The notes beneath the pieces are model-generated. The model saw only the letters and a list, made by a program, of their open reading frames with translations, did no database searches and was not told the DNA's origin. The position numbers and the translations under genes were made by a program. Positions 36,502-61,841 of a stretch of DNA of 64,000 nt are shown piece by piece (the first letter of the stretch is position 1; each line of letters begins with the position of its first letter). Source of the stretch: Anaerolinea thermophila (GTDB taxonomy: Bacteria > Chloroflexota > Anaerolineae > Anaerolineales > Anaerolineaceae); the NCBI RefSeq assembly GCF_020723905.1, contig NZ_DYHZ01000004.1:241199-305198 (forward strand). The letters run 5' to 3'.

Positions 36502-38454
36502 ATGATTGTGAAACGCTGGATGCCTCTTGTGCTGATGACTCTGGCGCTGGTGAGCGGATGTATTGTGCCGCCCAGCCCCACCCCGGCGGCGAGCGTCACG
36601 CCCACCGCCTTACCCCCTACCCCCACCGAAACGCCCATCCCCACCCCGGAAATGCCCCGTACGCTGGTGGTGTGCCTTGCCGAAGAACCGCAGACGCTGT
36701 ATCCCTACGGCGGCAATTCGCGCAGTATGTGGGCGGTGCTGGAAGCCCTGTACGATGGTCCCTTTGATACCCGTCAGTACGGCGTCCAGCCGGTGATTCT
36801 GGAGAAGATGCCCGCGCTGAGCGACGGCGATGCCCGCATTGAAGCGGTTGAGGTTCGGGCAGGCGACCCTGTGGTGGATGCGGCGGGCAATCTGGTGGCG
36901 CTGGCGGCGGGTGTGCAGGTGCTCCCGGCGGGGTGTGCCTCGCCGGAGTGCGCCGTCACCTGGGACGGATCCAGTTCTCTGCAGATGGATCGTCTGACGG
37001 TCACCTTCCGCCTCAAGGAGGGCATTCAGTGGTCAGACGGCGCCCCGCTCACCGCCGAAGATTCGGTCTTTTCCTTCAATATTGCCGCCGACCCGGCAAC
37101 GCCGACCGCCAAGGGGCTGATTGACCGCACTCTCTCTTACACGGCGCTGGATGAGCGTACGGTGGAGTGGGTGGGCGTGCCCGGTTTTCTGGAGCGCAAC
37201 TACCCGGCGTATTTCTTCCTGCCTCTGCCCAGACATGCCTGGGGGACGCTGAGCGCGGCGCAGATTTTACAGGATGAGCAGATTCGCCGCGCGCCGCTGG
37301 GCTGGGGGGCGTATACGGTGCAGGAGTGGACGGCGGGCGATCACATCACCCTGAAGAAGAATCCGCTGTACTTCCGCGCCGCCGAGGGGTTGCCTGCCTT
37401 CGATACGCTGGTGTTCCGCTTCTCGGGCAATCCGCCCGACAGCGCTTTGATGGCGCTGGTGGCGGGCGAGTGCGACATCGTCGAACCCAATGCCGATTTC
37501 CTGCCCCTGCTGGAAGAACTCATCAACACGCAGAACAACGGGCGCTTGCAGTTACTGCTGGCGCAGGGTCCGGAGTGGGAGCATGTGGCGTTTGGCATCC
37601 GCCCGGCGTCTTACGATGACGGCTACGACCCGGCGGCGGGCGACCGCCCCGATTTCTTCGGCGACGTGCGCACCCGCCAGGCGTTTGCACTGTGCGCCAA
37701 CCGGGAGGCGATTGTCCGGCAGGTGTTCTTCAACCGTGTGGAAGTGCCGCGCGGCTATCTGGCGCCCGATCACCCCGCCTACAACAAAGAGGCACTGCCC
37801 GAATATCCCTACGACCCGGCGCGGGGGAGTGCCCTGCTGGATGAGGTGGGCTGGAAGGACCTCGATAACGACCCCGGCACCCCGCGCGTGGCGCAGGGGG
37901 TGAGCGGCGTCCCCGACGGCACCCCTCTGAAGGTGGAATTGCTCACCACACAGGCGGCACTGCGCACCCAGACCGCGCAGACCCTTCAGCAGTCCTGGCG
38001 CGCCTGCGGCATTGAAACGACCATTGCCCAGTTGCCCCCCGGCGAGATGTTCGCCCCCGGTCCGGATGGGGCAGTCTTTGGCAGGCGCTTTGACCTTGCC
38101 ATGTTCTACTGGCAGACCAGTCAGCGCAATGCCTGCGCGCTGTACACCAGTGCCCAGATCCCCGGTGCCATCAACCAGTGGATTGGCGTCAACGTGAGCG
38201 GTTTTTCCTCGCCCGCCTACGATGCGGCGTGTCTGGATTCACTGCGGGCGCATGCCACCCCCGCAGAAGATCTGCAAGCCCTGCAGAACGCCGAGAAAGT
38301 CTTTGCAGAGCAGTTGCCCGTCCTGCCGCTGTACTTTCAGTTGAAGATTGCCATTGCCCGCCCCGATCTGTGCGGTTTTGCGCTTGATCCCACGGCGCGC
38401 AGTTTCCTGTGGAACATTGAAGATATCCATATCGGTGAGGGTTGTCAGCCGTGA
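36502..38454 (+). CDS. ABC substrate-binding lipoprotein, family 5 (canonical domain order)
   Basis: Lipobox LVSGC; LVVCLAEEPQTLYPYGG...VTFRLKEGIQWSDGAPLTAEDSVFSFN...LGWGAYTVQEWTAGDHITLKKNPLYF...RQAFALCANREAIV. Confidence 0.9.
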   Translation: MIVKRWMPLVLMTLALVSGCIVPPSPTPAASVTPTALPPTPTETPIPTPEMPRTLVVCLAEEPQTLYPYGGNSRSMWAVLEALYDGPFDTRQYGVQPVILEKMPALSDGDARIEAVEVRAGDPVVDAAGNLVALAAGVQVLPAGCASPECAVTWDGSSSLQMDRLTVTFRLKEGIQWSDGAPLTAEDSVFSFNIAADPATPTAKGLIDRTLSYTALDERTVEWVGVPGFLERNYPAYFFLPLPRHAWGTLSAAQILQDEQIRRAPLGWGAYTVQEWTAGDHITLKKNPLYFRAAEGLPAFDTLVFRFSGNPPDSALMALVAGECDIVEPNADFLPLLEELINTQNNGRLQLLLAQGPEWEHVAFGIRPASYDDGYDPAAGDRPDFFGDVRTRQAFALCANREAIVRQVFFNRVEVPRGYLAPDHPAYNKEALPEYPYDPARGSALLDEVGWKDLDNDPGTPRVAQGVSGVPDGTPLKVELLTTQAALRTQTAQTLQQSWRACGIETTIAQLPPGEMFAPGPDGAVFGRRFDLAMFYWQTSQRNACALYTSAQIPGAINQWIGVNVSGFSSPAYDAACLDSLRAHATPAEDLQALQNAEKVFAEQLPVLPLYFQLKIAIARPDLCGFALDPTARSFLWNIEDIHIGEGCQP

Positions 38455-56177: not shown

Positions 56178-56507
56178 GGGTAACCCTCCTGAAGCGGACC
56201 TTCATCTGACGATGAAGAATGATACCAGCATACCGGCTTCCGGGGGATGGGACAGGCACATGAAAGTTTTTTCATGCTGGCAGGGGGCGGTTTAGCCGTT
56301 TTCGACTTTGAGAATGCCATGGGGATTTTTTTCTTTTGGAAGAATTGACAAATCATGGGGATTGTTTATAATGACCTTTATCCCCACAGGATTTCCAATC
56401 CATGGACCATTTGAGGAGGTGGTTGCCCGTTCATTCCTGTGTTGTTTTTCCCGATGCCCTTTCGGGATAACAAAATCCAAATCCAACCTTTGCCAAAGGA
56501 GGAGATT

Positions 56508-58235
56508 GTGTTCAAGCGTTCATTGTTTACCTTTGTGGCTTTGCTGGTCGTTTTGAGTCTGGCGCTGGCGGCATGCCAACCCAAACCCACCGAAGCGCCC
56601 ACTCAGCCCCCTGCACAGCAGGAACCGACCAAAGTTCCGGAACAGCCTACCGCTACACAGGCGCCGGAACAGCCTACCGCCCCCGCTTTTGAGGGTATGA
56701 AAGTCGAAGCCCCCAACTGCGATTACGGTGGCGAACTCAAGTCCATCGAAGCCGTGGATGCGCAGACGGTGAAGTTCACCCTGTGCTATCCGGATCCAGC
56801 GTTCCCCTCCAAGGTGGCGTTCAATGTGTTTGCCATCGTGGATAGCGACTATCTGGCTCAGGTGGGGGGCGACTCGATTAAGATGTCCGACGCGCCGGTC
56901 GGCACGGGTCCCTTCAAACTCAAATCCTGGGTGCGCGGGGACAGCATCACCTTCGAAGCCAACCCCGAGTACTGGGGCGAGAAACCCAAATACCAGACCC
57001 TGATCTTCCGCTGGTCTGAGCAGTCGGCTCAGCGCCTGCTGGAACTGCAATCCGGTCAGGTGGATGGGATTGACAACCCCGCGCCGGAAGATTTCGCCAC
57101 CATCGAAGCCGATTCGAACCTGCAACTGATTCCGCGCGACCCGTTGAACATCTTCTACATTGGCTTCAACGTGGATCTGGCGCCGTTCAACAATGAAAAG
57201 GTGCGCCAGGCGTTCGCCATGGCAATCGACCGCAAGAAGATCGTGGACAACTACTACCCCGAAGGTTCTGAGGTTGCCACGGTGTTTGTCCCGCCCGCCC
57301 TCAAACCCGGCTGGAGCGATGCCAACCCGTGGTACGAGTACAACCCCGACATGGCGAAACAACTGCTCACCGAGGCGGGCTTTGACTTCAATCAGGAAGT
57401 CAAACTCTCCTTCCGCAATGTGGTGCGCGGTTACCTGCCCACCCCGGATAAGGTGGCTCAGGAAATTCAGGCTCAACTGGCGGAGATTGGCGTCAAGGTG
57501 AAACTGAACCAGATGGAATCGGCGGCGTTCATTGACTCTACCGCCGCAGGCAACGAAGCCTTCTACCTGCTGGGCTGGGGCGCCGACTATCCGGATGCCA
57601 CCAACTTCTATGACTATCACTTCGCCAACGAAAACAACAAGCAGTTTGGCACGCTCTTCCCCGACATCGTCGAGCCCATCCGCAAAGCCGCGCAGATTGC
57701 TGACCCGGCAGAGCGCCAGAAACTGTACGATGAGGTTAACGCCAAACTGAAAGAGCACGTCCCGATGATCCCGGTGGCGCACGGCTCTTCAGCGGTTGCC
57801 TTCACCGCTTCGGTCAAGAATGCCATGACCGGTCCATTGAGCAACGAACCCTTCTTCATCATGGACCCCGGCAAGGACACGCTGGTGTGGATGCAGAACG
57901 GCGAACCGGCGGCAATTTACTGCCCGGATGAAACCGACGGCGAAGCCCTGCGCGCCTGCCAGCAGATTTTCGAGACCCTCCTGCTCTTCAAACCCGGCAC
58001 GGCTGAGGTGGGTCCCGGTCTGGCGGAGTCCTACACCGTCAACAGTGATGCTACCGAGTACGTCTTCACCCTGCGCAAGGGCGTGAAGTTCCACAACGGC
58101 GCCGATCTGGACGCCAATGATGTGGTGGCTTCCTTCAAGGCGCAGTGGGATGCCAAAGACCCCAATCACAAGGGTCGCACGGGTACCTTCGAGTACTTTG
58201 GAGCCTTCTTCGGCGCGTTCCTCAACGCCGAGTAG
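56508..58235 (+). CDS. ABC substrate-binding lipoprotein, family 5, circularly permuted
   Basis: GTG start after AAAGGAGGAG; lipobox LALAAC; body begins with mid-domain ELKSIEAVDAQTVKFTL and ends with canonical N-terminal segment DGEALRACQQIFETLLLFKPGTAEVGPGLAESYTVNSDATEYVFTLRKGVKFHNGADLDANDVVASF. Confidence 0.9.
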   Translation: MFKRSLFTFVALLVVLSLALAACQPKPTEAPTQPPAQQEPTKVPEQPTATQAPEQPTAPAFEGMKVEAPNCDYGGELKSIEAVDAQTVKFTLCYPDPAFPSKVAFNVFAIVDSDYLAQVGGDSIKMSDAPVGTGPFKLKSWVRGDSITFEANPEYWGEKPKYQTLIFRWSEQSAQRLLELQSGQVDGIDNPAPEDFATIEADSNLQLIPRDPLNIFYIGFNVDLAPFNNEKVRQAFAMAIDRKKIVDNYYPEGSEVATVFVPPALKPGWSDANPWYEYNPDMAKQLLTEAGFDFNQEVKLSFRNVVRGYLPTPDKVAQEIQAQLAEIGVKVKLNQMESAAFIDSTAAGNEAFYLLGWGADYPDATNFYDYHFANENNKQFGTLFPDIVEPIRKAAQIADPAERQKLYDEVNAKLKEHVPMIPVAHGSSAVAFTASVKNAMTGPLSNEPFFIMDPGKDTLVWMQNGEPAAIYCPDETDGEALRACQQIFETLLLFKPGTAEVGPGLAESYTVNSDATEYVFTLRKGVKFHNGADLDANDVVASFKAQWDAKDPNHKGRTGTFEYFGAFFGAFLNAE

Positions 58236-58340: not shown

Positions 58341-59417
58341 ATGTTACAGTTCATCACGCGTCGTCTCATTTTGCTCGTTCCAGTGCTGATTGGCGTCCTG
58401 CTGGTCACCTTTATCATCGTGCGCGCCATTCCGGGCGATCCCTGTAAGGTGATGCTGGGGGAGCGCGCCACGGAGGAAAAGTGCGCCGAGTTTCGTGAGC
58501 GCTACGGCTTGAACGATAACCTGCTGGTGCAGTTTGGGCGCTTCCTGGTCAACATGGGCAAGGGAGACCTGGGCGTGTCCATCCGTTTTGGGCAGCCCGT
58601 CGTTAGCCTGATTGCCGCCCGCCTGCCCATGACCATCGAACTGACGATTGGTGCCATGCTCTTCTCCACCATTGTGGGGGTGTTTCTGGGCATTATCTCG
58701 GCGCTCAAACGCAACACCATCGTGGATACCCTCACCATGGTCATTGCCAATGTGGGCGTATCCATGCCGGTGTTCTGGCTGGGGCTGGTGCTGGCGTATG
58801 TCTTTGCGCTGTTGCTCAAAGATACCCCCTTCTTCCTGCCTCCCTCGGCGCGCCTGACCTCCGGGCTGGCGCTGACCCAACTGGCGGATTACTGGGGTTT
58901 GAAAGACATGAGCGGCTTCCAGAAGTTTGTGGTGGATTTTCTCACCCACTCCCTGCTGGTGAACGCTCTGGCGACCGGCAACTGGAAACTGCTGGGCGAC
59001 GGCTTGCGCCATCTCATCCTGCCGTCAGTGGCGGTTGGAACGATTCCCATGGCAATCATCGCCCGCATGACCCGCTCCAGCCTGCTGGAAGTGCTGGGGC
59101 AGGATTACATCCGTACGGCGCGCGCCAAGGGCTTGCCCTACAACAAGGTGATTACCCGACATGCCCTCTCCAATGCCATGATCCCCATCGTCACCATCAT
59201 CGGGCTGGAGACGGGCGCCCTGCTTTCGGGGGCGGTGCTGACCGAGACGGTTTTCAACCTGCCGGGGGTGGGCACGGCGCTGGTGGGCGCCATTCTGGCG
59301 CGCGATTACCCCGTGGTGCAGGGGTTTACCCTGGTGGTTGCCATGGTGTTTATCCTGGTCAACCTGCTGGTGGATATTTCCTATGCCTACCTTGACCCGC
59401 GCATCCGCCTGGAGTAA
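58341..59417 (+). CDS. dipeptide/oligopeptide ABC transporter permease (DppB-like)
   Basis: MLQFITRRLILLVPVLIGVLLVTFIIVRAIPGDPC...RTARAKGLPYNKVITRHALSNAMIPIVT. Confidence 0.93.
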   Translation: MLQFITRRLILLVPVLIGVLLVTFIIVRAIPGDPCKVMLGERATEEKCAEFRERYGLNDNLLVQFGRFLVNMGKGDLGVSIRFGQPVVSLIAARLPMTIELTIGAMLFSTIVGVFLGIISALKRNTIVDTLTMVIANVGVSMPVFWLGLVLAYVFALLLKDTPFFLPPSARLTSGLALTQLADYWGLKDMSGFQKFVVDFLTHSLLVNALATGNWKLLGDGLRHLILPSVAVGTIPMAIIARMTRSSLLEVLGQDYIRTARAKGLPYNKVITRHALSNAMIPIVTIIGLETGALLSGAVLTETVFNLPGVGTALVGAILARDYPVVQGFTLVVAMVFILVNLLVDISYAYLDPRIRLE

Positions 59418-59429
59418 AAGGGAGAAGCC

Positions 59430-60356
59430 ATGAGCGCAGTATCGCTGAACCATACCCCTAAAGCCGTCGAACGCTGGTCTCCCACCCGCGAGGCGTGGCG
59501 GCGTTTGCGCCGTCACCGCTCGGCGCAAATTGGCATGATCATCCTGGGGCTGATGGTGCTGGTGGCAATTTTTGCCCCGCTGATTGCCCCTTACGACCCC
59601 GTCAAACAGATGCAGAACGTCAAGCGCCGCGAGCCGCCCTGCATTCATTTACTGGGGTGTCCCGCCGAGAAACCGGAGCATCTCTTCGGCATTGACGGCA
59701 ATTTCCGCGATCTGTTCTCGCGGGTCGTGTTTGGCTCGCGGCTGTCCCTGCAAATCGGTTTTGCCACCATTGGCTTTGCCATTCTGGTGGGTGGTTTGCT
59801 GGGGGCTGTCTCGGCATATGCAGGCGGCTGGGTGGATAACCTCATCATGCGCACCATGGATGTGCTGATGGCGTTTCCCAGTCTCCTGCTGGCGATTGCC
59901 ATTGTGGCGGTGCTGGGCACCGGTCTGATCAACGCCCTGCTTGCCATTGGCATTGTGTCCATTCCGCGCTATGCCCGGTTGGTGCGGGCAACCGTTCTGC
60001 AGGTGCGTGAGATGGAGTACGTGCAGGCTTCGCGCGCGCTGGGCGCAGGTGGACTGCACATCCTCTTCCTGCGCATTTTGCCCAACGCCATTACCCCGCT
60101 CATTGTGCAGGGCACGCTGGGCATTGCCGGGGCGATCATTGATGCGGCGGCGCTGTCGTTCCTCGGGCTGGGCGCTGAGCCGCCCACCCCCGAATGGGGC
60201 TTGATGCTGGGCGAGGAGCGCAACAGTGTGTTCAATGCCCCCCATCTGGTGTTCTTCCCGGGGTTAGCCATCATGCTCACGGTGCTCTCGTTTAACCTGC
60301 TGGGCGACGGTTTGCGCGATGCGCTCGATCCGCGCCTGCGGGGGAATGTTTCCTGA
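59430..60356 (+). CDS. dipeptide/oligopeptide ABC transporter permease (DppC-like)
   Basis: LRRHRSAQIGMIILGLMVLVAIFAPLIAPYDP...RDLFSRVVFGSRLSLQIG...LGLGAEPPTPEWGLMLGE. Confidence 0.93.
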   Translation: MSAVSLNHTPKAVERWSPTREAWRRLRRHRSAQIGMIILGLMVLVAIFAPLIAPYDPVKQMQNVKRREPPCIHLLGCPAEKPEHLFGIDGNFRDLFSRVVFGSRLSLQIGFATIGFAILVGGLLGAVSAYAGGWVDNLIMRTMDVLMAFPSLLLAIAIVAVLGTGLINALLAIGIVSIPRYARLVRATVLQVREMEYVQASRALGAGGLHILFLRILPNAITPLIVQGTLGIAGAIIDAAALSFLGLGAEPPTPEWGLMLGEERNSVFNAPHLVFFPGLAIMLTVLSFNLLGDGLRDALDPRLRGNVS

Positions 60357-60422: not shown

Positions 60423-60454
60423 GCCCCCGACATTGTCCCGTCGGGGGCTTTTTT
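60423..60454 (+). terminator. rho-independent terminator after the peptide ABC operon
   Basis: GCCCCCGAC-ATTGTCCC-GTCGGGGGC followed by TTTTTT. Confidence 0.88.
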
Positions 60455-60638
60455 GTGTGGGAATGCCCGGATGAAGTTTGAAGAGCGGTCAGGGGAGCAT
60501 GGCGGGTGCGGGGGTGGAAATTAGAATCTCTTAACATAACCTTGCAAAATACCCATTTTGGCGAATCTCCGTTAAAATCCACACACAGGGAATGTTTTCT
60601 TGTGAACCGCCCTGTGATTGCTTTTAAAGGAGTTTGAT

Positions 60639-61841
60639 ATGTTGCGTAAACTTTTGCCCTTGCTGGCGGTGATGGCTCTCCTGCTTGGCGCATGCCAGCC
60701 GCAAACTGCAGGCAGTAAAGCCCCCATCAGCGGCACGCCCATGGCAGATTGTCAGGTTTCCCCCATCCTGCCCACCCCCAACCCCACCCTGCAGGCGCTG
60801 ATTCCCGCTCCCGGCAAGGACGATCATATCCTCGGTAAAGAGACCGCGCTGGTCACCATCATCGAGTACAGCGATTATCAGTGCCCATACTGCGCGCTTC
60901 TGGCGCCGGTTCTGCATCAACTGGTGGATAAGTACCCCGACGATGTGCGCGTGGTCTTCCGGTACTTCCCGTTGACTTCGCACCCCAATTCGTGGACGGC
61001 AGCGCAAGCCGCCGAAGCCGCCGGAAAACAGGGAAAGTTCGTGGAAATGCACGAATTGATTTTTGCCCGGCAGGATCAACTGGCGGGTTATGCTCCCGAA
61101 AACGCCCTGGATTACTTCGTCACCCTTGCGGAGGAGTTGAAATTAAACGTGGAGCAGTTCAAGAAGGACTATGCCAGCGAGGAAGTCAGAGCGCGCATTC
61201 AGAAAAATCTGGATGAAGCCATGAATTCCGGTTTGCCCGGCACCCCCTTCCTCTTCCTGAACGGCCTGCCCTACCAGGACCGCATGGATCTGGAGACGCT
61301 TTCCAGTCTGGTGGAACTGTTTAAATTACAGGCGCGCCAGTACACCTCCTGCCCGCCGATGATTATAGATCCCGCCAAACAGTACACGGCAACCCTGGAG
61401 ACGGAAAAGGGCAAAATCGTCATCAAACTGTATGCCGATAAAGCCCCGCTGGCGGTGAACAATTTCGTCTTCCTGGCGCGCGAAGGCTTCTTCAACGGCG
61501 TCACCTTCCACCGCGTCCTGCCGGGCTTTGTGGCTCAGGCGGGCGATCCCAGCGGAAGCGGTTATGGTGGTCCGGGATACGTCTTCAAGAATGAGAACGC
61601 CGACGCCAAGTTTGACCGCAAGGGTCTGGTGGCGATGGCGAACTCTGGCGCCGATACCAACGGCAGTCAGTTCTTCATCACCCTGGATGCGCAGGAGAGC
61701 CTCAACGGCAATTACACCATCTTCGGCGAGGTCATCGAGGGCATGGACGTGGTGGAAAGCCTCACCCCGCGCGATCCTGCCAGTGATGCAACTCTTCAAC
61801 CCGGCACCCGAATTCTCAAGGTGACCATTTCGGAGAAATAG
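60639..61841 (+). CDS. lipoprotein fusing a DsbA/thioredoxin-like domain to a cyclophilin-type PPIase
   Basis: Lipobox MALLLGAC; EYSDYQCPYCALLAPVLHQLVDKYPDDVRVVFRYFPL; then NNFVFLAREGFFNGVTFHRVLPGFVAQAGDPSGSGYGGPGYVF...NGSQFFITL. Confidence 0.92.
   Translation: MLRKLLPLLAVMALLLGACQPQTAGSKAPISGTPMADCQVSPILPTPNPTLQALIPAPGKDDHILGKETALVTIIEYSDYQCPYCALLAPVLHQLVDKYPDDVRVVFRYFPLTSHPNSWTAAQAAEAAGKQGKFVEMHELIFARQDQLAGYAPENALDYFVTLAEELKLNVEQFKKDYASEEVRARIQKNLDEAMNSGLPGTPFLFLNGLPYQDRMDLETLSSLVELFKLQARQYTSCPPMIIDPAKQYTATLETEKGKIVIKLYADKAPLAVNNFVFLAREGFFNGVTFHRVLPGFVAQAGDPSGSGYGGPGYVFKNENADAKFDRKGLVAMANSGADTNGSQFFITLDAQESLNGNYTIFGEVIEGMDVVESLTPRDPASDATLQPGTRILKVTISEK

Follow-up and report, generated by a model that had tools for sequence, protein, structure and literature searches.

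The window analysed here, a stretch of 64,000 nucleotides from Anaerolinea thermophila, contains a gene for a family-5 substrate-binding lipoprotein whose segments, as proposed in a first-pass annotation made from the sequence letters alone, follow each other in a circularly permuted order. The locus raises the question of whether this order is a natural property of a working receptor, how it might have originated and what it would change in the encoded protein.

Segment order and operon of the window gene

The open reading frame (ORF) begins with a GTG codon at 56508, which is immediately preceded by an AGGAGG sequence, and terminates with a stop at 58235. The gene and its surroundings display the following features:

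56345..56372, + strand: sigma-70-type promoter, TTGACA-16-TATAAT, with a consensus match of 12/12
56508..58235, + strand: gene of the proposed circularly permuted family-5 substrate-binding lipoprotein, ORF of 575 amino acids with PF00496 in two swapped stretches
56508..56576, + strand: signal peptide and lipobox with Cys23, sequence LALAAC
56577..56717, + strand: P/T/Q-rich tether linker of about 47 amino acids, assigned from its sequence
56718..56786, + strand: new N-terminus of the fold with Cys71 and Cys93, a probable disulfide judged from the counts of the pair across aligned rows
56727..57860, + strand: 'MC' segment with the remaining part of domain Ib, the core of domain Ia, domain II and the old C-terminus (PF00496 profile 62-367)
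57852..57875, + strand: joint of the old C-terminus to the old N-terminus, placed by the segment spacing in permuted ORFs
57870..58232, + strand: 'NP' segment, the old N-terminal part, now C-terminal and ending ...FLNAE (PF00496 profile 1-55)
58341..59417, + strand: DppB-type permease (NCBIfam DppB model 1-336/339, E 4e-89)
58443..58484, + strand: DppB scoop motif CKVMLGERATEEKC with E41/R42 kept and Cys35 and Cys48 flanking
59430..60356, + strand: DppC-type permease (NCBIfam GsiD and DppC models, E ~1e-90)
60423..60448, + strand: intrinsic terminator at the end of the operon, with a 9-bp stem containing 8 GC pairs followed by T6

Counterparts of the DppA residues R383 (VVRGY) and D436 (GWGADY) are both located in the MC segment. 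The ribosome binding site of the gene and its position just upstream of two matching permeases, which had already been remarked upon, are borne out by the AGGAGG sequence and the identification of DppB and DppC. On its upstream side, the gene is flanked by an Ogt/MGMT-like ORF on the opposite strand, which rules out that an N-terminal domain had been missed in this region. Elsewhere in the window, positions 60618-61841 encode a lipoprotein in which a DsbA/thioredoxin-like domain, similar to the Rcas_1661 family, is joined to a cyclophilin-type prolyl isomerase.

Compared to PF00496, the whole protein of 575 amino acids scores 312.7 bits, above the gathering cut-off of 32.4, with positions 62-367 of the profile being matched first and positions 1-55 last, so that the protein as it stands does not follow the profile in linear order. 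In separate scans, residues 74-378 correspond to profile 62-367 (257 bits) and the C-terminal 121 amino acids to profile 1-55 (65 bits, E 1e-17), and restoring the pieces to canonical order yields a single collinear match to profile 1-367 with 326 bits. The identical swap is found with respect to all close PDB relatives with residue-level alignments, comprising structures of DppA, GbpA and HbpA, as exemplified by the GbpA/HbpA entry 3m8u, where residues 478-567 of the query align with 24-120 of the chain and residues 76-434 with 125-487. The second substrate-binding protein of the window (36502-38454) shows the canonical PF00496 order, in agreement with its initial description. A natural circular permutation, as initially suggested, is supported by this profile order and by the deep conservation, the tree position and the kept ligand residues and permeases described below.

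Cut, joint and predicted fold

Mapped on DppA from E. coli, the cut falls between precursor residues 144 and 152 in subdomain Ib and, on SapA, it is located near residue 176, within domain Ib and close behind the loop 139-162. In SapA, domain Ib comprises residues 69-229 and the loop is disordered in the crystal (PMC8519434). The position of the cut is pinned by a group of basal permuted proteins (L106-L111, L118 and L119), which have kept canonical residues on both of its sides: their chains stop after ...FGGFKGE, where canonical relatives continue with ...WNGFKGDSIVTNIEKVDDYTVK, and they start with KSLLRWVEAVDEYTVK, compared to WNGFKGDSIVTNIEKVDDYTVKF in the canonical L081. In a set of 106 permuted ORFs, which includes repeat copies of some genes, the old C-terminal and N-terminal ends are spaced by 6-13 residues (median 7) and the chain ends at a median of 2 residues past the NP segment.

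An AlphaFold model of the window protein was obtained with a pLDDT of 80.6 and a pTM of 0.80, with low confidence for the last 26 residues, whereas a run on 8 near-identical rows had a pLDDT of 54 and was discarded. In a Foldseek comparison, which is limited to alignments in sequence order, the first ~375 residues of the model match GbpA/DppA with a TM of 0.67 of the full 505 and an rmsd of 2.9, and the best structural matches are cluster C peptide-binding proteins. The chain is predicted to adopt the ordinary DppA fold. Alternatively, the NP segment could be swapped between molecules and pack onto an adjacent one, in which case the receptor would be a dimer or chain. We consider such swapping improbable, as the joint and the termini are uniformly short, which would suit a chain that closes on itself, and the monomer was modelled with the pTM given above.

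Distribution and origin of the permuted order

In the survey of homologues proposed in the first-pass annotation, 396 sampled genomes of the same class were searched. The permuted order occurs in at least 143 of them, with at least 150 genes among the matches listed and at least 30 family codes covered. All 150 listed matches are collinear across the joint and are taken as permuted because a canonical gene cannot align collinearly in this region. A profile of 16 permuted proteins recovered the same order in families f67, f71 and f79 from other classes of the phylum and nothing but canonical-order matches in further phylum families. The canonical-order genes of the class that a de-permuted query retrieved do not exceed an identity of about 39%. 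When all species were scanned with exact 8-residue patterns, permuted loci appeared solely in records of Chloroflexota or Anaerolineae. The best plasmid matches outside of the phylum consist of two pieces across a stretch of canonical length, and viral contigs scanned for additional rows contained no relatives.

The permuted order is inherited and not a one-off. Working from one sequence, the first-pass annotation could not exclude an artefact, a worry that is removed by the recurrence of the order in independent assemblies of more than 100 genomes. The probability that it reflects faulty assembly or binning, or else a decayed tandem duplicate, is practically negligible: the collinear genes in the class and in other classes are nearly all fully open, their ligand residues are invariant and their new ends are tight.

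In a tree of 59 rows calculated from both segments, all 38 permuted rows are found in one clade with a support of 100/99, and the long-branched canonical row L093 is placed inside this clade with weak support. Constraining the permuted rows to one clade comes at a cost of 0.54 log-likelihood units and is not rejected (p-AU 0.295), which is compatible with a single origin. Two independent permutations at one site, as suggested by a first quick tree, are unneeded since the careful tree and the AU test accept one clade. The likeliest scenario is a single permutation event in Chloroflexota that started from a tandemly copied canonical gene, where the C-terminal end of one copy would have become fused in frame to the N-terminal part of the next and the outer pieces would have been lost. 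No intermediate of the type NP-MC-NP was found among the relatives recovered. A tandem duplication with partial loss had already been invoked for the window gene, and it gains indirect support from an inner linker remnant in two related proteins.

These proteins, L100:1866-3602 (genome G085) and L121:1164-2930 (G109), are intact lipoproteins from two species of the same genus with 89% identity, and the two assemblies agree in the kinds of genes upstream and in having DppB downstream. Their chains start with YEAVRQALAMAID, continue through the old C-terminal end, the N-terminal part and a stretch EVPPATATDTKYEAPNCDYGG and end with ...IGLNNDVKP. The inner stretch resembles the lipoprotein linker of permuted relatives such as L033 (...SATDTKYAAVDCKYGG). 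The two proteins thus appear to be the product of a second permutation that was built upon the first and that retained the old linker within the chain, where it would be the trace of a permuted copy having been fused to its successor. Because a linker remnant is expected if the end of a copy joins the next copy past its signal peptide, they seem to offer the best evidence available in support of the tandem-copy route. The second cut is located at about mature residue 275 of DppA. This position we take to be the start of domain II, with limits assigned by analogy to SapA (PMC8519434).

Within the permuted proteins, the main clade appears to be marked by pairs of cysteines at the new N-terminus and in the scoop of DppB. 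Of the 31 main-clade permuted rows, 29 contain both Cys71 and Cys93, a combination seen in 0 of 21 canonical rows. The pair around E41/R42 of the DppB scoop is contained in all main-clade partners read (34 segments, which leave out one wrong-frame match, and L100), whereas all 3 partners of basal permuted proteins lack it and a single one of 15 canonical partners has it. As both pairs map to one branch, their association counts as one event. The pairs may be joined as disulfides and thereby hold the new end and the scoop in place.

Predicted function, fusions and relation to known systems

In DppA, R383 and D436 contact the termini of the bound dipeptide, and in the complex E41/R42 of the scoop loop of DppB touch both residues (PMC12136057). 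All 59 rows, of which 38 are permuted and 21 canonical, contain the equivalents of R383 and D436 without exception, and E41 and R42 are retained in DppB of the window. With 252.9 bits, the window protein scores below the cut-off of 1005 of the NCBIfam DppA equivalog NF043070. No ATPase gene adjoins the operon. Elsewhere in the same genome, the C9 ATPase pair, which is also near another substrate-binding protein with permeases, is 73-78% identical to DppD/DppF adjoining the permuted gene in L036 and probably works with the window operon.

The presence of the ligand-binding and scoop residues, the promoter, DppB/DppC, the terminator and related ATPases leads us to infer that the window protein is an ordinary dipeptide receptor in an unusual chain order. 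We are fairly confident in the overall reading of a working Dpp-type receptor, predicted to bind dipeptides or short peptides, whose ends were moved from domain Ia to a surface loop of domain Ib by permutation with one tandem-copy origin. This receptor would close on peptides whose amino and carboxyl ends are both free, by contacts to the Asp and Arg, and dock on DppB/DppC, where the scoop loop would displace the ligand, and import would be powered by DppD/DppF encoded elsewhere in the genome. The tether would be the sole difference, with the lipid anchor and linker entering via domain Ib. Of the changes considered possible in the first-pass annotation, in the hinge, the tethering geometry or the permease docking, a shift of the tether attachment is unavoidable. 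The conserved Arg/Asp, and Glu41/Arg42 of DppB, argue for docking and release to proceed as in ordinary DppA. A role outside of transport, in which the protein would act as a sensor or an adhesin and provide other modules with its binding domain, could be envisaged from two diverged relatives, L101 and L102, which resemble membrane-anchored receptors. It is nevertheless unlikely, given that DppB, with a matching scoop motif, and DppC follow the window gene and most relatives examined.

Among the 150 permuted genes listed, at least 43 are located in ORFs of 750 amino acids or longer. Ahead of the permuted domain, the majority of the ORFs scanned from this group contain SBP_bac_3, one or two Peripla_BP_6 or both kinds of domains. 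Because the closest canonical relatives contain the same kinds of N-terminal fusions, permutation is not required for fusion, and the idea that it had enabled the fusions is ruled out as stated. The SBP_bac_3 domains of the permuted L028 and the canonical L086 are 84% identical although permuted and canonical genes share less than 40% identity in their family-5 parts, and N-terminal receptors have therefore been exchanged between genes. Across the pairs L028/L086, L056/L085 and L050/L080, the fused SBP3 or BP6 domains of permuted and canonical hosts are 65-84% identical.

L050:3270-7286, L055:5269-9276 and L111:1122-4541 are lipoproteins of ~1140-1340 amino acids with three binding-protein domains, either two Peripla_BP_6 or Peripla_BP_6 and SBP_bac_3, followed by permuted SBP5; the clusters of L050 and L055 also contain polar-amino-acid-type permeases besides DppB/DppC. 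L101:427-3669 (1080 amino acids, one genome), which does not adjoin DppB, combines caspase (Peptidase_C14), HEAT and FHA domains and a transmembrane-like segment with permuted SBP5, and in the membrane-receptor-like L102:1186-3495 the permuted SBP5 is preceded by a soluble domain at the N-terminus and then a transmembrane-like segment. Tentatively, and with somewhat less than even confidence, the family might be viewed as modular multi-flytrap receptors, in which the family-5 domain was permuted twice, family-3 and family-6 domains were exchanged, several importers are fed and disulfide-stapled ends of the binding proteins have co-adapted with the scoops.

With DppA/GbpA (HbpA) of family-5 cluster C (PDB 1dpp, 3m8u and 8z1y), the window protein shares all segments of the fold, the Asp and Arg binding the dipeptide, the DppB/DppC partners and, as predicted, the capture and delivery of substrates to an ABC permease; it differs by a chain that starts in subdomain Ib and has the old N-terminal part last, by an identity of ~28-35% and by its extra cysteine pairs. 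Tp0684 (TpMglB-2) from T. pallidum is likewise a naturally permuted binding lipoprotein of an ABC importer, in this case for sugars, that is kept in many species and for which a tethering rationale was also proposed (PMC4990184). It belongs to the Type I/cluster B sugar-binding fold ('Type Ic'), another superfamily with a different cut, and the part of this report available to us describes neither a second permutation nor a fusion series, unlike in the window family. In GlnPQ, too, a single chain contains multiple binding domains, with two domains of an amino-acid importer fused to the permease itself (PMC8025302), whereas in the fusions seen here a secreted lipoprotein carries family-3 and/or family-6 domains ahead of a family-5 domain of permuted or canonical order. 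A full-text search, with most subscription papers and all bioRxiv preprints outside its reach, returned no published natural permutation of a family-5 protein, and the novelty of the permutation is thus provisional.

Among large two-lobed binding proteins, few natural circular permutations have been documented, and the full-text search yielded one example of a substrate-binding protein, of another fold. Linear domain annotation conceals such proteins because it labels them as plain SBP_bac_5. The fusions of receptor domains hint at multi-specific capture proteins, which are undescribed as far as our searches reached. If the two successive permutations hold true, the anchor would enter at domain Ia in canonical proteins, at domain Ib after the first and at the start of domain II after the second permutation. 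Within one phylum, canonical, permuted and re-permuted homologues are available together with similar types of permeases, and with their help one could test by which route permutations originate in vivo and if the position of the tether on the receptor of an ABC importer matters.
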